A program made the position numbers and the translations under genes. A stretch of 24,172 bases of DNA, taken from a virus. Below are positions 5,297-18,620 of the stretch, in pieces (the stretch's first letter is position 1; each line of letters starts with the position of its first letter). The notes under the pieces are model-generated. The model saw only the letters and a program-made list of their open reading frames with translations, ran no database searches and had not been told where the DNA came from. The stretch is taken from IMG/VR virus record IMGVR_UViG_3300021247_000436, positions 1 to 24,172 of that record; one strand, written 5' to 3'.

Positions 5297-5718
5297 TTGA
5301 TAGTTTAAACTTTCAATCTGAATCTAAAAAATCTGGTGATGATTTTGAGGCGCTTGTGTTTGAAGATTTAAAACATCGTGGATTTAATGATATTGAAAAG
5401 AATGTTTATATGCCTGGAACAGGTTGTGAAGTAGACTTTTTAGCAAAAGGCTCTAAGTACGAGTATGTGGAGTGCAAGGGTGGCAAGAAGGGTGATGGCA
5501 AGAGACCTGGAGCCAAAAGAACTGATAATGTAAAAAAAGCAGTAGCAAATGGCTCTATTATGAAAAGAATATACGAGACAATGTACTACGTTGTATATTT
5601 TTCTGATACTCCAGAGCCAGGATCATATTCAGAACAGATGCTTGATATTGCTTTAAAGTATAAGATAATAGATGAAGTTAGATATCTTAAACCATTTGAT
5701 ACTGAGGATCATCAGTAA
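5293..5718 (+). CDS. PD-(D/E)XK restriction-endonuclease-like nuclease (141 aa)
   Basis: GTG 5293 overlaps the previous TGA. Residues around 16-20 (DDFEALVFEDL) supply the first glutamate of the fold, GCEVDFLAKG the aspartate (Asp48), and YVECKGG the E-x-K pair (Glu60, Lys62). This is the classic metal-binding core of restriction-endonuclease-like nucleases. At 141 residues it is a single domain. Possible jobs are Holliday-junction-type cleavage, host-DNA degradation or exclusion. The 3' end overlaps the convergent oxygenase gene by 32 bases, an unusually long tail-to-tail overlap. Confidence 0.75.
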   Translation: MIDSLNFQSESKKSGDDFEALVFEDLKHRGFNDIEKNVYMPGTGCEVDFLAKGSKYEYVECKGGKKGDGKRPGAKRTDNVKKAVANGSIMKRIYETMYYVVYFSDTPEPGSYSEQMLDIALKYKIIDEVRYLKPFDTEDHQ

Positions 5719-6238
5719 ACCAAATAGGTATTGCATATCTATTTTGAGTTGTTTTATTAACTCCATGCAAAGAATCTTTATCTCTGCAGTCAAATAATAC
5801 TAAATCTCCAGCCTGCGGTTTATAAGAAAACTCTATTTTTGGAAAAACAATTTCTCCACCAAATGCCTGATCATTTAAATATATTACACCGCTATATATG
5901 TAGTGAGATCCTTTACCACCATCAGTATCCATATGTCTAATTATGTTAGTATCTGGTAATTGTTTAGATAGCCATAGAGTAGATAAGTAAACATCATTTT
6001 TTTGATCGTGCAATTCTTTTGCTACTCTTCCCGCTTTTTCTGCAATACTCTTAAGATAAACACCCATATCACCAATAAAACTTAATGGATGGGTTGAGCC
6101 ATTCATTATATCTATACCAAATCTCATTAATCTTCTTTTAACTTTAGAGTTTGTTTCCTGGTCATTGTCTTCAATAAAAGTAATTATACTATTACATTCT
6201 TCTAGATCAATAAAATTTTTAATAACATATGGCTTCAC
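5687..6238 (-). CDS. 2OG-Fe(II) oxygenase, prolyl-4-hydroxylase type (183 aa)
   Basis: Complete triad: His102-x-Asp104 (RHMDTD), distal His158 (SLHGV), and Arg167 (NRYAI) for 2-oxoglutarate. FGGEIVFP and YKPQAGDLVLFD are the strands typical of prolyl-4-hydroxylase-like enzymes in phages and bacteria. Hydroxylation of a peptide or amino acid is likely; the substrate is unknown. The start is GTG 6238, six bases after a minus-strand TATACT, so it should be leaderless despite a non-AUG codon. Its promoter is half of a perfect inverted repeat shared with the divergent gene at 6274. Confidence 0.85.
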   Translation of the reverse strand: MKPYVIKNFIDLEECNSIITFIEDNDQETNSKVKRRLMRFGIDIMNGSTHPLSFIGDMGVYLKSIAEKAGRVAKELHDQKNDVYLSTLWLSKQLPDTNIIRHMDTDGGKGSHYIYSGVIYLNDQAFGGEIVFPKIEFSYKPQAGDLVLFDCRDKDSLHGVNKTTQNRYAIPIWFTDDPQYQMV

Positions 6239-6435: not shown

Positions 6436-6509
6436 GCACCAGTAGCCAAGTTGGTTAAGGCCCCGAACTCATAATTCGGTTATCGTAGGTTCAAGTCCTA
6501 CCTGGTGTA
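6436..6509 (+). tRNA. tRNA-Met or tRNA-Ile2 (anticodon CAT)
   Basis: Acceptor GCACCAG/CTGGTGT (first pair G-T), anticodon stem CCGAA/TTCGG with loop CTCATAA (CAT at 6470-6472), T-arm GTAGG-TTCAAGT-CCTAC, discriminator A. CCA is not encoded. The first pair is not the mismatch expected of an initiator, so it is elongator Met or a lysidine-modified Ile2; sequence alone does not decide. Confidence 0.85.
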
Positions 6510-6513
6510 CTAT

Positions 6514-6588
6514 ATCTCTGTAACTCAGTGGAAGAGTGACACCCTTCTAAGGTGTAGGTCGTAGGTTCGAATCCTACCAGGGATACCA
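6514..6588 (+). tRNA. tRNA-Arg(TCT)
   Basis: Acceptor ATCTCTG/CAGGGAT (one T-G wobble), D-arm ACTC-AGTGGAA-GAGT, anticodon stem ACACC/GGTGT with loop CTTCTAA (TCT), T-arm GTAGG-TTCGAAT-CCTAC, discriminator A, encoded CCA (6586-6588). It reads AGA/AGG, the arginine codons favoured by AT-rich phages. Confidence 0.9.
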
Positions 6589-6589
6589 A

Positions 6590-6663
6590 GCGAGTGTTGC
6601 ATAATGGTAGTGCACCATCCTTCCAAGTTGGTTGTGCCAGTTCGATTCTGGTCACTCGCTCCA
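6590..6663 (+). tRNA. tRNA-Gly(TCC)
   Basis: Acceptor GCGAGTG/CACTCGC, D-arm GCAT-AATGGTA-GTGC, anticodon stem CCATC/GTTGG with loop CTTCCAA (TCC at 6622-6624), T-arm GCCAG-TTCGATT-CTGGT, discriminator T, encoded CCA (6661-6663). One T-T mismatch sits in the anticodon stem. Only one base separates it from the CCA of tRNA-Arg. Confidence 0.9.
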
Positions 6664-6664
6664 A

Positions 6665-6736
6665 GGCTCCATCGTCTATCGGTTAGGACTCCAGATTTTC
6701 AATCTGGCAAGACGGGTTCGACTCCCGTTGGGGCTA
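6665..6736 (+). tRNA. tRNA-Glu(TTC)
   Basis: Acceptor GGCTCCA/TGGGGCT (wobbles), anticodon stem CCAGA/TCTGG with loop TTTTCAA (TTC at 6698-6700), T-arm ACGGG-TTCGACT-CCCGT, discriminator A. CCA is not fully encoded. Last of the four-gene array. Confidence 0.9.
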
Positions 6737-6742
6737 CAGTGG

Positions 6743-6748
6743 TATAAT
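6743..6748 (+). promoter_or_regulatory. Promoter with a leader and strong ribosome-binding site
   Basis: TGG-TATAAT lies 20 bases before ATG 6769, which has an AAGGGGG ribosome-binding site (6758-6764). Unlike most promoters here it is not leaderless, suggesting higher or differently timed translation of the iron-sulfur/tailoring cluster. Confidence 0.65.
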
Positions 6749-6768
6749 TATAAAAACAAGGGGGAAGC

Positions 6769-6984
6769 ATGAAAGAAGGAAGCATAGTAATGATTACAGA
6801 AGGTGATCATGAAGGTAAGGCAGCAACAGTTGTTAGTACAAATGATGTTGAGTCTGTTGTAAAGATTTTTAGAAGTGAAGAAACTTTGACCATTGAAGAT
6901 ACAAAACTAAAAAGAAGAAAAGCCTGTGTTTGTGGACAGTCACAAAGTTACCCATTTTGTGATGGATCACACGCTAATGGCTAG
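6769..6984 (+). CDS. KOW-like / CDGSH iron-sulfur fusion protein (71 aa)
   Basis: Residues 1-50 (EGSIVMITEGDHEGKAATVV and the strand after it) look like a small KOW/SH3-type beta barrel. Residues 53-68 read CVCGQSQSYPFCDGSH, an exact match to the CDGSH signature CxCx2(S/T)x3PxCDG(S/A/T)H, which binds a [2Fe-2S] cluster through Cys53, Cys55, Cys64 and His68. CDGSH proteins handle redox or Fe-S transfer; the KOW-like part suggests contact with nucleic acid or ribosome/RNA polymerase. I infer a redox-sensing or Fe-S donor role, possibly serving the nearby Fe(II) oxygenases. The start has a strong ribosome-binding site. The end overlaps the methyltransferase gene by eight bases. Confidence 0.8.
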   Translation: MKEGSIVMITEGDHEGKAATVVSTNDVESVVKIFRSEETLTIEDTKLKRRKACVCGQSQSYPFCDGSHANG

Positions 6985-7675
6985 AAAGCCTGTTCGTGGG
7001 CTGCAGCATGGAGAGGTAAAAACTTTTCAAGAAGATGAGATTGAAGACTCAGAAAAAATATCTCAATCTCAACTCAATAATACTAAAGTTTATTCTTCAA
7101 GAGAAGAGTACGCTAAAAGCGTTCCTGAAGGAATAAGGTATTTAGAGTTTGGTGTTGCATGGGGTTATTCTGCACAACTATTTATAGACACAGCAAAAGC
7201 ATCTCACGCATTACTAGTTGATTTATATAACCAAGACTTAAAGTGTTGGTCGTGGCGAAAGTTTGGTTCATGTCAGTGCGAGGGTTTCAAGCATGAACTC
7301 TTATATACCCCAGAAAATCATCAACAGTATATAATTGATAAGTTTAATTATCATCCAAATATTGCAACAATGAAAGGTGATGCTGTAAGTGTTGCTAAAC
7401 AATTAAATGGAAAATATGATCTTATCTATATTGATATTAGCAATGATAGGATTCAAACTAGAGATCTTTTATTAGAATCTTCAAGGCTTGTTCGTGTTGG
7501 TGGAGTTATTGGATTGAATGATTATTTAATTTATGATGGGGTAATAGAAGATCAGCCTTATGGTACATTCCAAACAGTTAATGAGTTCCTGCATTTAAAT
7601 AAAAACTGGATAGTAGATGCAATCGCCCTGCATAATCTAGGGTTCTATGATATTTATATAAAAAGGATATCTTAG
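6977..7675 (+). CDS. Class I SAM-dependent methyltransferase (232 aa)
   Basis: I place the start at ATG 6977 (overlapping the CDGSH gene by eight bases) rather than at an in-frame ATG 51 bases upstream, which would run deep into that gene. RYLEFGVAWGYSA (about residues 54-66) is the SAM-binding motif I, DLIYIDIS (about 150-157) the motif-II/IV strand, and LLLESSRLVRVGGVIGLND the late helix-strand of the Methyltransf_24 type, often found in glycan or O-methyl tailoring. The WSWRKFGSCQCEGF insertion is unusual. Substrate unknown; cluster membership suggests methylation of a hydroxylated product. Confidence 0.75.
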   Translation: MARKPVRGLQHGEVKTFQEDEIEDSEKISQSQLNNTKVYSSREEYAKSVPEGIRYLEFGVAWGYSAQLFIDTAKASHALLVDLYNQDLKCWSWRKFGSCQCEGFKHELLYTPENHQQYIIDKFNYHPNIATMKGDAVSVAKQLNGKYDLIYIDISNDRIQTRDLLLESSRLVRVGGVIGLNDYLIYDGVIEDQPYGTFQTVNEFLHLNKNWIVDAIALHNLGFYDIYIKRIS

Positions 7676-7684
7676 CAGTGATGC

Positions 7685-7690
7685 TATAAT
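7685..7690 (+). promoter_or_regulatory. Leaderless promoter (extended TGC-TATAAT)
   Basis: TGC-TATAAT ends six bases before ATG 7697. It gives the oxygenase/carbamoyltransferase part of the cluster its own start. Confidence 0.7.
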
Positions 7691-7696
7691 AGGTAT

Positions 7697-8290
7697 ATGC
7701 ATAGAATCCATATAGTTGAAAACTTTATATCTCCAGAAGATGCTGCAACTCTAATTGCTGAACAAAATAATCCTTCTGAAATAAATCCTTATCCAAAATA
7801 CTATAGCCAAAGATATGGTGGAACTTCTCTTCCATATAATAAAACTGTTATGGATATTATGATTAAGTATGGTCATAAATCAAATGAAATGCATCGTGAA
7901 CTTTATGGATTTAAGAATGATATTTATGTTTTTAAAGGTTTTGGCTCTCATTGGTCAACTGGTACAAAAGGTGATCTTCACATTGATGCACAAGGACCAG
8001 AGCCATGGATTGAATTTAGTACCATTATGTATTTAAACAATGAGTCAGAGTACGATGGTGGAAAGATATATTTCCCTAACCAAGACTTTGCATATCAACC
8101 AAAACAATACTCTGCTGTATTTTTTCCAAGTGCTGGCACCGAATACATACATGGAATTACAACAGTAACAAGAGGAGATAGGTACACTGCTTTATACATG
8201 CATACAAGTTTGCCTCAGCATGTAGATCCTGAATTCCACCCTGGGAAAAATGAGTGGAAAGCAAAGGACTACCCACTTGTTAGACTTTAA
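7697..8290 (+). CDS. 2OG-Fe(II) oxygenase (197 aa), leaderless
   Basis: Iron and cofactor residues are all present: His95-x-Asp97 (DLHIDAQ), distal His152 (YIHGI), Arg162 (GDRYTALY). DGGKIYFP and PSAG between them are the expected core strands. The C-terminal 25 residues (PEFHPGKNEWKAKDYPLVRL) extend beyond the core. Likely a hydroxylase; the substrate is not identifiable. It overlaps the next oxygenase gene, which is followed by the carbamoyltransferase, so hydroxylation followed by carbamoylation of the new hydroxyl is a reasonable reading of the order. Confidence 0.8.
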   Translation: MHRIHIVENFISPEDAATLIAEQNNPSEINPYPKYYSQRYGGTSLPYNKTVMDIMIKYGHKSNEMHRELYGFKNDIYVFKGFGSHWSTGTKGDLHIDAQGPEPWIEFSTIMYLNNESEYDGGKIYFPNQDFAYQPKQYSAVFFPSAGTEYIHGITTVTRGDRYTALYMHTSLPQHVDPEFHPGKNEWKAKDYPLVRL

Positions 8291-8945
8291 TGTTGAAGTT
8301 TTAGATCTTGGTATTGCATACTATACAGATGTTATTAAAGATCCAGCATCACTAATTAAACAAATTGAAGAGTTAGATGCTAAATATGCAGAGGACAATA
8401 AACCATTACAAACATCTGTTAAGCCATGGATTGCCTGGACATATGGTGAAGGCGAAAATAAATTAATGTTTTGCTGGCAAAAATTTATTCCACAAGTAGA
8501 GCACATACCTGCTAATGATGTTTACAAAGAAGAACAAACAAACATATCCTCTCAGTTGTTTGGTGCGCTTGATAAAACTCTTCATCATTACACCACAGAA
8601 CTCTATCCTTTTGCTGAAAAGAATATCAAGTCTAGAGAGCATACAATGCACTTACTAAAATATGATACCAGTGGTCATCTTCCTGCACACCAAGATCAAG
8701 GAATTAGTAGTCGTGTGCTCTCTGTTCTTCTTTATTTAAATGATGACTATGAGGGTGGAGAAATTGAGTTTAGACATTCTGGATTAAAATTTAAGCCTAA
8801 AGCAGGAAGTGTTTTATTCTTTCCATCTAATTTCTTGTATGTACATGAGGTATACCCAGTAACAAAAGGTCCTAGATATGCCCTTCCAAATTGGTATCAT
8901 AATATACCGTTAGAATTAAAAAGAGATTCTACTGGAGCAGAATGA
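8250..8945 (+). CDS. 2OG-Fe(II) oxygenase (up to 231 aa)
   Basis: The frame opens at ATG 8250 (ribosome-binding-like GGGAAAA), overlapping the previous gene by 41 bases. TTG 8277 is a serious alternative: AAAGGA lies eight bases before it and the overlap drops to 14. Counting from 8250, the triad is His147-x-Asp149 (PAHQDQG), His199 (YVHEV) and Arg209 (GPRYALPNWY). YEGGEIEF followed by KFKPKAGSVLFFPS is nearly the same as in the oxygenase at 16495, so these two are close paralogs. The gene overlaps the carbamoyltransferase by four bases (ATGA). Confidence 0.85.
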   Translation: MSGKQRTTHLLDFNVEVLDLGIAYYTDVIKDPASLIKQIEELDAKYAEDNKPLQTSVKPWIAWTYGEGENKLMFCWQKFIPQVEHIPANDVYKEEQTNISSQLFGALDKTLHHYTTELYPFAEKNIKSREHTMHLLKYDTSGHLPAHQDQGISSRVLSVLLYLNDDYEGGEIEFRHSGLKFKPKAGSVLFFPSNFLYVHEVYPVTKGPRYALPNWYHNIPLELKRDSTGAE

Positions 8946-10381
8946 AAATATTAGGAATTAATGAAACATCTCATGATGCGTCTGTATCTTTAATTGAGGA
9001 TGGAAAAATATTATTTGCTGGGCATGCAGAAAGATACAGTAAGCAAAAAAATGACTGGTACATCAATGATAGTTTAATAAAAGATGCTTTGCAATATGGT
9101 AGACCAGATTACCTAGCCTACTACGAAAAGCCCCTTCTAAAGGCTTCCAGACTGCTTTTAAAGGGTGGTTCTGGGGACTGGAAACCAAGATATGAACTAA
9201 ATAATATCTTTGGGAGACCAATACCAGTAAAATCATTTAAGCATCATTACTCGCATGCTGCTGCTGGTTACTATACTAGTCCTTTTAATGATGCGGTAAT
9301 AGTTGTGTTGGATGCTATTGGTGAATACAATACCTCTACCGTTTGGGTTGGCGAAGGCGAAAAGATCAAACTTAAGCATAAACAAAACTATCCAACTAGT
9401 TTTGGTTTATTTTATTCAGCCTTTACAGATTTAATTGGCCTTATGCCTAACCAAGAAGAGTACATTATGATGGGGATGGCAGCGTATGGAGACTGGAAGA
9501 GATACTATAAAGAAGTAGATGATTACTTCCCAAATTATCACACACAGAAATATAATTTTCACAAAGGTATTCATGACTGGGGTATGCCAATAAACGAACA
9601 GGATAAGTTTGATATTGCTGCTGCAGTTCAAGTTGTTTATACAACTAGACTAATGGAATTTATGAGAATGGCAAAACTAATCACTGGCAAAAAGAATCTT
9701 GTATTCATGGGTGGATGTGCCCTTAACTCATCAGCAAACACGTCTTTGTGGAATTTGTTTGATATGATCTGGATTATGCCTAATCCAGGAGATGCAGGCA
9801 GTTCTTTAGGTGCTGCAGCAGCCTTGTATGGAAAGCATATTGAGTGGAAAGATCCATACCTAGGACATGATCTTGGTGGAGACTACCCTGTTCAAAAGAT
9901 TGTAGATGCTATTTTAAAGGATGGTATTGCAGCAGTAGCAACAGGAAGAGCAGAGTATGGGCCAAGAGCATTGGGAAATAGAAGTATTCTTGCTGATCCA
10001 AGAGATCCAAACATCAAAGATAAAGTAAACATGATTAAAAAACGTGAACTATTTAGGCCATTTGCTCCAGTTGTTTTAGAAGAGTATGCACATAAATGGT
10101 TTGATATGGACTTTGCTTCACCTTATATGCAGTACACAGTTAAATGTCTACAGCCAAACAAAATTCCATCGGTAGTGCATGCAGATGGAACTTCTAGAGT
10201 TCAAACTGTCAATAGAAATGATCATCGTGGTCTGTGGAGAACTGTTAATAAGTTTTATTTAGAGACTGGTGTGCCAGTGCTTCTTAATACTAGTTTAAAC
10301 ATTAAAGGACAGCCACTGTTAAATGATGAAGCAGATGTTGTTCTTTGGGAAAAAACTTATGGACAAAGCATAATTAGATAG
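8942..10381 (+). CDS. NodU/TobZ-family O-carbamoyltransferase (479 aa)
   Basis: N-terminal ASKHA/Kae1-like domain: MKILGINETSHDASVSLIED at the start, the metal-binding KHHYSHAAAGYY (His101, 102, 105), and FMGGCALNSSAN around residue 260. C-terminal YrdC-like half with AEYGPRALGNRSILADPR (about 340-357), ELFRPFAPVVLEE and VPVLLNTSLNIKG. Known members transfer the carbamoyl group of carbamoyl phosphate, through a carbamoyl-adenylate, to a hydroxyl group on a sugar, antibiotic or, in some phages, on 5-hydroxymethylcytosine. It ends slightly before the usual C-terminal strand. Its start overlaps the oxygenase gene; its end overlaps the convergent RsmI-like gene by eight bases. Confidence 0.85.
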   Translation: MKILGINETSHDASVSLIEDGKILFAGHAERYSKQKNDWYINDSLIKDALQYGRPDYLAYYEKPLLKASRLLLKGGSGDWKPRYELNNIFGRPIPVKSFKHHYSHAAAGYYTSPFNDAVIVVLDAIGEYNTSTVWVGEGEKIKLKHKQNYPTSFGLFYSAFTDLIGLMPNQEEYIMMGMAAYGDWKRYYKEVDDYFPNYHTQKYNFHKGIHDWGMPINEQDKFDIAAAVQVVYTTRLMEFMRMAKLITGKKNLVFMGGCALNSSANTSLWNLFDMIWIMPNPGDAGSSLGAAAALYGKHIEWKDPYLGHDLGGDYPVQKIVDAILKDGIAAVATGRAEYGPRALGNRSILADPRDPNIKDKVNMIKKRELFRPFAPVVLEEYAHKWFDMDFASPYMQYTVKCLQPNKIPSVVHADGTSRVQTVNRNDHRGLWRTVNKFYLETGVPVLLNTSLNIKGQPLLNDEADVVLWEKTYGQSIIR

Positions 10382-11153
10382 GCATATTGCCATTCTTATG
10401 ATCTATTACAACAGTAATCTGATCCCAAATACTTCTTTCAGTTGTCTCAAAGTATTCCTTTAAATACCCAAATGTTCCACGAACAACTCTTTCATCTTCT
10501 TTTGTTAAGTTATAACAAAGTGCAGCATGTCTTTCTACTCCAAAGATCTTGCATGAATCTTCTAAGAACTCATTAATCTCTTCGCTTAGGACTGGATACT
10601 GACCTGCTTCATCAACCTTTTTTACATTTCTTAACACCAAAACAAGTGGAGTATGAAGATTTGCTCTATCCATTAAAAACTTAATCTTATCTTTTCTTTC
10701 ATATGGCAGAAAAGAATCAAAAGTAAAGTTGTGCATTGTTCCTGTAACTGCAACTGCAGCAATAGCAACTGATGGTCCTGGCGTAGCAGTGACCTCAACA
10801 CCAGCACGAATTGCTTTGCCAACTATATGCGATCCAGGGTCTGCAACCCCAGGCATACCTTCATCTGAAATTATGTGAACGTCTTCTCCATTGTCAAGTA
10901 GGGCCATAATCTTATCCATATTCCTTAATTCATAGGGTATTCCATCTGGTTCCCCCGCATTTGATTCAAACTCTATAGATATAATATTAGAATCTGGTCT
11001 AGTCATACCAAGAGAAGACCATATATGCTCAAATGCTTCTTCTCTTTCAATAACCAGATTTTTTGCGGTAGATATATATCTTTTTGCTCTTTCAGATGTA
11101 TCTTCCCAATTTCCTATTGGCAGACCAACTAAGTATAGTTTTCCCTTTTTCAT
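10374..11153 (-). CDS. rsmI: RsmI-like 16S rRNA (cytidine-2'-O) methyltransferase homolog (259 aa)
   Basis: The protein has the tetrapyrrole-methylase fold signatures in RsmI order: YLVGLPIGNWEDTSERA (about 7-23), ISDEGMPGVADPG (about 95-107) and TATPGPSVAIAAVAVTG (about 122-138). Cellular RsmI uses SAM to 2'-O-methylate C1402 of 16S rRNA in the ribosomal P-site. The length (259) is near the cellular one (about 280). Differences include a longer acidic stretch after residue 30 (EFESNAGEPDG) and a short C-terminus. Its ATG overlaps the stop of a 26-residue basic peptide (TAATG). The fold is secure; the substrate could have shifted. Confidence 0.85.
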   Translation of the reverse strand: MKKGKLYLVGLPIGNWEDTSERAKRYISTAKNLVIEREEAFEHIWSSLGMTRPDSNIISIEFESNAGEPDGIPYELRNMDKIMALLDNGEDVHIISDEGMPGVADPGSHIVGKAIRAGVEVTATPGPSVAIAAVAVTGTMHNFTFDSFLPYERKDKIKFLMDRANLHTPLVLVLRNVKKVDEAGQYPVLSEEINEFLEDSCKIFGVERHAALCYNLTKEDERVVRGTFGYLKEYFETTERSIWDQITVVIDHKNGNMPI

Positions 11154-18338: not shown

Positions 18339-18620
18339 CTAATCTAGCGTTAAGTATTTCCATGTTTGTGACCATATAGTTTTATCTTTATGCTTATTAA
18401 ATTCTCTAGAGATCTCGCCACCTTCTAAGTATACTCCACCCCAAACGCCCCACTCTTTTCCAGTAATACCAACAGCAAAGCATGACCTACTTATAGGACA
18501 TTCAGAGCATAGTTTATCTATTGCTGGTCTTAATAGTTCGTCGTCTTCGTACTTATCAAAAAATAAGTTAGTGTCATAGTCTAAGCAAGACGCTTCATCT
18601 TTCCATTCATGCTTTCCCAT
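18339..18620 (-). CDS. WhiB-family Fe-S transcription regulator (93 aa)
   Basis: Four cysteines in the WhiB order, Cys12, then CSECPISRSC (Cys38, 41, 47), ligate a [4Fe-4S] cluster; GVWGG (58-62) is the family's signature turn, followed by a charged C-terminal segment. WhiB proteins are essentially restricted to actinobacteria and their phages, where they bind the housekeeping sigma factor and alter promoter choice. This is the clearest host indicator in the window. A phage copy may act on host or late phage promoters, or interfere with the host's own WhiB proteins. The ribosome-binding site is weak. Confidence 0.9.
   Translation of the reverse strand: MGKHEWKDEASCLDYDTNLFFDKYEDDELLRPAIDKLCSECPISRSCFAVGITGKEWGVWGGVYLEGGEISREFNKHKDKTIWSQTWKYLTLD

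Follow-up and report, generated by a model that had tools for sequence, protein, structure and literature searches.

A 71-amino acid protein encoded in this virus record joins a KOW-like SH3 barrel to a CDGSH [2Fe-2S] motif, and the pairing is real, a known module placed in an apparently undescribed architecture. Judged from its sequence, the protein carries the complete cluster module of the CISD (NEET) proteins yet belongs to none of the seven types published for them (Lin et al. 2011, PMC3174974). Its function is read here, tentatively and at rather less than an even chance, as that of a docked [2Fe-2S] carrier serving phage iron enzymes, the oxygenases first.

Domain Structure of the KOW-CDGSH Protein

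The DNA analyzed, termed the window, is a whole IMG/VR virus record, 24,172 bases long, and its features are collected in Table 1. Translation confirms the coordinates and length given for the gene in the preliminary description, and the residues named there as the CDGSH signature (Cys53, Cys55, Cys64 and His68) are present and sit in the full CISD signature C-X-C-X2-S-X3-P-X-C-D-G-S-H. Both domains of the window protein score above the Pfam curated cut-offs, KOW (PF00467) with 24.6 bits against 22.3 over residues 4-33 and zf-CDGSH with 35.4 bits against 29.5 over residues 50-69; PHROGs and NCBIfam returned nothing informative for it. The combination of the two in one protein, as originally proposed, is backed by profiles, structure prediction and the family.

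The barrel is genuinely related to KOW domains, as profiles and predicted models show. With the CDGSH part excluded, a profile of residues 1-49 matches SPT5 in the PDB at 2.8e-5, plastid and bacterial uL24 at 0.002-0.007 and eS4 at 0.02, and the profile of the whole alignment matches SPT5 at 4e-6 over residues 3-50; scored singly, only 4/20 members match Pfam KOW at E 0.01. AlphaFold2 predicts for the window protein (mean pLDDT 92) five strands across residues 6-50 and a loop lobe formed by the CDGSH part, the N-terminal fold coming out KOW-like as had been supposed. The best Foldseek matches of the model are SPT5 KOWs, and VIA-align superposes it onto many of these with Z of 8.5-9.5 and about 1.1 Å over 50 residues. 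The model of the divergent member L135 (pLDDT 80) gives the same barrel. The KOW glycine is kept in the window protein and in about half of the members, being K, D, L or deleted elsewhere.

The five-strand SH3-like barrel is shared with the KOW domains of SPT5 and NusG and with uL24, to which it is related by profile matches and superposes within 1.1 to 1.2 Å over about 50 residues. The phage protein differs from these in having neither an NGN domain nor a ribosomal extension, in being acidic and in the iron-sulfur motif that follows the barrel. The same barrel is also seen in NdhS/Ssl0352, an SH3-like subunit of photosynthetic complex I (PDB codes 3c4s and 6khi; Z 8.7, 1.0 Å over 52 residues), although NdhS has no CDGSH motif and the sequence profile gives no match between the two. 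NdhS/Ssl0352 has a ferredoxin-docking role. Because the same barrel serves protein docking, the fold alone cannot signify RNA binding.

In each of the 21 gene copies examined the barrel has a net charge between -2 and -6, whereas the linker and CDGSH lobe together carry +3 to +6. The acidic barrel argues for protein docking rather than RNA contact, but the basic lobe may yet make contact with nucleic acid. In human SPT5, KOW4 has a positive patch by which it binds nucleic acids, and binding by KOW6-7 was not detected (PMC6076269). The redox-switched nucleic-acid- or ribosome-binding protein envisaged in the preliminary description thus gained no positive support, the barrel being net negative in every copy, unlike SPT5 KOW4.

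Table 1. Features of the window and of related CDGSH open reading frames in other virus contigs
Feature	Position	Strand	Remarks and basis
tRNA island Met-Arg-Gly-Glu	6436..6737	+	directly upstream of KOW-CDGSH gene
Extended -10-like promoter TGGTATAAT	6740..6748	+	between tRNA-Glu and gene; predicted
Ribosome-binding site AAGGGGG	6758..6764	+	from sequence
KOW-CDGSH gene	6769..6984	+	71 aa plus stop; ORF translation, Pfam
KOW/SH3-like five-strand barrel	6769..6918	+	residues 1-50; Pfam KOW, AF2 pLDDT about 95, VIA, barrel-only profile
Barrel strands, window protein			residues 6-9, 18-24, 28-33, 39-43, 47-50; predicted
Basic linker K48-R49-R50-K51	6910..6921	+	K51 invariant, K48 nearly so; alignments
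CDGSH module, 17 residues A52-H68	6922..6972	+	expected ligands C53, C55, C64, H68; Pfam zf-CDGSH, alignment of 20 sequences
Class I methyltransferase (Methyltransf_24)	6977..7675	+	ATG overlaps last 8 nt of KOW-CDGSH gene
2OG-Fe(II) oxygenase (PF13640)	5687..6238	-	Pfam
2OG-Fe(II) oxygenase (PF13640)	7697..8290	+	Pfam
2OG-Fe(II) oxygenase-like	8250..8945	+	clusters with other two by BLAST; HMM seed
Carbamoyltransferase (NodU/CmcH type)	8942..10381	+	
RsmI-like protein (TP_methylase)	10374-11153	-	homologues in most family loci
WhiB-like Fe-S regulator	18339-18620	-	
TGNTATAAT sites	1412, 4168, 6740, 7682, 16463	+	
TGNTATAAT sites	14403, 15729, 19601	-	
CDGSH-oxygenase ORF, L009	5136-5975		
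CDGSH-oxygenase ORF, L010	8635-9363		
CDGSH-oxygenase ORF, L018	6104-6940	-	
CDGSH-oxygenase ORF, L119	2756-3631		
WYL_2-CDGSH ORF, L007	9122-9490	+	123 aa

Comparison of the CDGSH Module with the CISD Types

CISD proteins are described by a 17-residue module, a preceding strand, a P motif (GP-Phi-X-Phi), a hydrophobic Phi1 and the pairing of two modules, and in the solved CISDs the P motif, with its proline placed as a lid over the cluster, and the hydrophobic Phi1 are conserved (PMC3174974). The universal residues C2, C4, (S/T)7, P11, C13, D14, G15, (S/T/A)16 and H17 are all found in the window protein and are invariant or conservatively varied across 20 members, except that position 7 is alanine in L001. 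The strand ahead of the module is predicted at residues 47-50 in the window protein and 48-50 in L135. There is no conserved GP in the KOW-CDGSH alignment, the P motif being present in viral type-4-like CISDs, and the hydrophobic Phi1 is absent, with residue 52 varying among A, L, N, S, K, R, T and P across the family. The lack of the GP P motif of the solved structures sets the protein apart from the seven types as a new CISD architecture and, if a cluster is bound, something else must cover it.

The nearest topology is that of the bacterial type 4 protein RsCISD with a complete 17-residue module, a strand directly before it and all strands N-terminal to the module, type 4 CISDs also having five strands ahead of the module (PMC3174974). 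The phage protein departs from type 4 in the lid-proline motif and Phi1 and in having a KOW barrel as its N-terminal domain. When KOW-CDGSH was aligned with the viral type-4-like proteins using hhalign, only columns 37-71 aligned, comprising the module with its preceding strand, and the homology did not extend across the whole N-terminal beta-sandwich of type 4. The type 5 and type 7 CISDs, fusions with the glutamate synthase FMN domain or DUF1271 (PMC3174974), similarly join CDGSH to another domain, but their CISD folds, of type 6 or type 4, are retained in full, which is not so for KOW-CDGSH. The solved CISD folds are all formed by a beta-sandwich with a lid proline, and a conserved family carrying the same module on a KOW barrel would mean that the module is portable. 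A type 4 CISD misread as KOW was rejected, since the barrel-only profile leads to KOW proteins, the P motif is missing and the alignment is confined to the module and one strand; the absence of CISDs from the top 50 rows of Foldseek or VIA is uninformative taken alone.

Family and Conservation

A single-sequence search returned one near-identical homologue, L001, with 92% identity. Screening virus contigs with a DNA pattern of the CDGSH signature located more than 100 loci, the open reading frames of which were sorted by eye, and an alignment search enlarged the KOW type to 34 loci (one of which, L154, is of another type) with about 20 distinct sequences on viral contigs of up to 123 kb. Across the approximately 20 members the invariant columns are K51, C53, C55, P62, C64, D65, G66 and H68, whereas barrel identity among the more distant members is 13-44%. 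The window and L001 genes are separated by 20 synonymous and 6 nonsynonymous codon changes (dN 0.05, dS 0.82), and dN/dS is below 0.25 in 6/6 close family pairs, showing that the gene is under purifying selection. The synonymous excess relative to L001 and the motif residues held invariant while the barrel diverges indicate that the fusion is more than chance. Neither a chance fusion nor a mis-assembly is compatible with about 20 members having the same architecture.

Genomic Setting

For most family members a same-strand tRNA island contains the gene or precedes it, and in the window the gene begins 32 nucleotides past tRNA-Glu. The ribosome-binding site reported previously is present, and the predicted promoter between the tRNA and the gene is an extended -10 element of which the 9-mer TGGTATAAT is kept in L001, several other members having TATAAT; a sigma-70 scan found no full promoter. 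Eight TGNTATAAT extended -10 sites occur in the window compared with 2.8 expected, most of them just 5' of genes and in the gene direction. The KOW-CDGSH gene is first in a block led by a predicted promoter, the genes of which across the family encode methyltransferase, oxygenase, sulfotransferase-like or carbamoyltransferase proteins. The methyltransferase start overlaps the gene end in the window, L001 and L122/L144 and is placed just past the stop codon in L141 and L143. Elsewhere the next gene is an overlapping oxygenase (L136) or is sulfotransferase-like by sequence with no Pfam match (L135 and L138). In the window two oxygenases and the carbamoyltransferase make up the block past the methyltransferase. 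The RsmI-like protein encoded on the opposite strand matches the model for the 16S rRNA C1402 2'-O-methyltransferase with E 5e-19, a score far below the curated cut-off. In L129 an S-adenosylmethionine decarboxylase (7453-7857, + strand) is found just upstream of KOW-CDGSH, at the place of the tRNA island in related phages.

Association with Fe(II)/2-Oxoglutarate Oxygenases

Oxygenases were counted by whole-record Pfam searches, which replaced a seed-biased count near the gene made with a home-made HMM. PF13640 is found in 16/16 family records searched with 2-7 copies each, compared with 6/36 thioredoxin-selected and 3/40 tRNA-selected virus records used as controls (9/76 together). Other virus records with CDGSH have it in 18/37, two KOW-type records having been removed from 39. 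The Fisher p values are 6e-12 for the family, where the records are related so that independence is overstated and 16/16 does not amount to 16 independent events, and 4e-5 for the other CDGSH records. Eight of the 11 KOW lineages have an oxygenase no more than 2.2 kb from the gene (expected 2.7, combined p 0.0015), the exceptions being L128, L134 and L135; for the other CDGSH kinds, the within-genome proximity of oxygenases is not significant (p 0.15). An RNA or ribosome role had been put forward for the protein, and these genomic associations favor iron-dependent modification enzymes instead.

In L009, L010, L018 and L119, representing at least three divergent sequences, CDGSH is N-terminal to and in one frame with a 2OG-Fe(II) oxygenase. 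Some of these reading frames could be two in-frame genes, with an internal ATG past the motif. In L007 a Sm-like SH3 barrel of the WYL_2 type (44.5 bits, cut-off 26.7) is followed by a C-terminal CDGSH. These fusions (L009, L119 and L007) resemble KOW-CDGSH in joining the phage module to another domain and differ in the partner and in the virus lineages that carry them. The WYL_2-CDGSH type, a second barrel-CDGSH architecture, occurs also in L021, L041 and L049. The phage CDGSH kinds thus comprise stand-alone proteins of 24-60 amino acids, tandem, type-4-like with GPILVKG, oxygenase-fused, WYL_2-fused and KOW forms. Open reading frames of 24-40 amino acids consisting of nearly nothing but the CDGSH motif recur in phage contigs (L005, L013, L015, L038 and others). 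KOW is the third phage CDGSH fusion partner after the 2OG oxygenase and WYL_2, a set that goes unmentioned in the searchable literature.

Proposed Function

The carrier model is preferred because of the CDGSH-oxygenase fusions and the co-occurrence, CDGSH in one frame with oxygenases in other phages being counted for it as a Rosetta-stone link. The protein would be a small soluble CISD-type [2Fe-2S] protein, probably a homodimer, with the KOW barrel in place of the usual beta-sandwich and a CDGSH lobe expected to hold a labile, solvent-exposed 3Cys-1His [2Fe-2S] cluster. The acidic barrel would dock the cluster lobe to a protein partner, and electrons, or else iron or the cluster, may then be passed to phage iron enzymes, the first recipients presumably being the accompanying Fe(II)/2-oxoglutarate oxygenases of the same modification gene block. 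The simplest role would be to keep the oxygenase iron ferrous. A precedent is mitoNEET, the CDGSH cluster of which is redox active and capable of electron transfer (PMC9490426). Against this reading, oxygenase-rich phages may simply carry both genes. The recurrent oxygenase link makes a prokaryotic CDGSH role testable in a small two-component system.

It is somewhat unlikely that the protein is instead a redox- or iron-responsive KOW regulator, in which the barrel, like the KOWs of NusG and SPT5, contacts the ribosome, Rho or RNA polymerase and the cluster state switches binding during infection, a proposal that replaces the RNA contact of the preliminary description with protein contact. The top barrel-profile matches (SPT5, uL24 and eS4) are transcription and translation KOW proteins, and in bacterial NusG a single surface of the KOW domain is the contact for both S10 and Rho (PMC7819879). 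The adjoining tRNA islands, the nearby RsmI-like rRNA methyltransferase and the second, Sm/SH3-type barrel fused to CDGSH in other phages (L007) also favor regulation, but the barrel of every member is acidic, the NGN domain is lacking and tRNA adjacency may merely mark where cargo genes sit. Furthermore, in the alignment column that we match to the aromatic residue with which E. coli NusG contacts S10 and Rho, family members have F, Y, L or C or lack the residue. The narrower proposal of a phage-specific Fe-S-gated NusG/SPT5-like KOW factor, whose labile CDGSH cluster would switch contact with the host transcription or translation machinery, is improbable; if true, the virus would couple gene expression to redox or iron state.

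A generic Fe-S or iron carrier, or a NO/oxygen sensor, for instance for phage WhiB or host Fe-S proteins, with the barrel a structural stand-in for the beta-sandwich, is likewise unlikely. Two different small barrels precede phage CDGSH motifs, as if any beta module suffices, yet the barrel here is a specific KOW relative; and the Fe-S regulator WhiB is encoded in 16/18 family records, but as it marks actinophages generally (PMC6802176) this co-occurrence is expected from the host. There is little probability of a small nucleic-acid- or protein-binding adaptor in which CDGSH forms a structural metal knuckle, with zinc or no cluster, as the absence of the lid-proline P motif and hydrophobic Phi1, the stand-alone phage open reading frames and the basic C-terminal lobe might suggest, since every ligand and structural residue in the cluster module is invariant, including P11 and the 3Cys-1His set, and zinc sites would hardly keep exactly this residue set.

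Distribution and Host

The supposition that the fusion is without precedent holds as far as the cellular, phage and open-literature searches reach. A search of 84,980 cellular species yielded no KOW-CDGSH; the junction DNA pattern used recalls 19/20 family members and is modeled on the viral linker, so that a cellular KOW-CDGSH with another linker could escape it; the three matches of one scan are not KOW-CDGSH. Among the matches listed for 398 genomes from the phylum of L156 there is no KOW-CDGSH, the coverage being almost only of the CDGSH end, with one tandem CDGSH starting at column 18. Isolated phages gave no KOW-CDGSH, the sole match being partial and insignificant, to one fecal contig. 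No report of a phage CDGSH or KOW-CDGSH protein was found in the open literature, a scope that leaves aside subscription papers and InterPro architectures.

WhiB has been used in earlier work as a marker of actinobacterial hosts (PMC6802176), and its occurrence in the family records therefore points to Actinobacteria as the probable hosts of these uncultured viruses. An ATG follows 6-7 nucleotides past the end of two of the extended -10 sites in the window, the spacing of leaderless genes, which fits an actinobacterial host.
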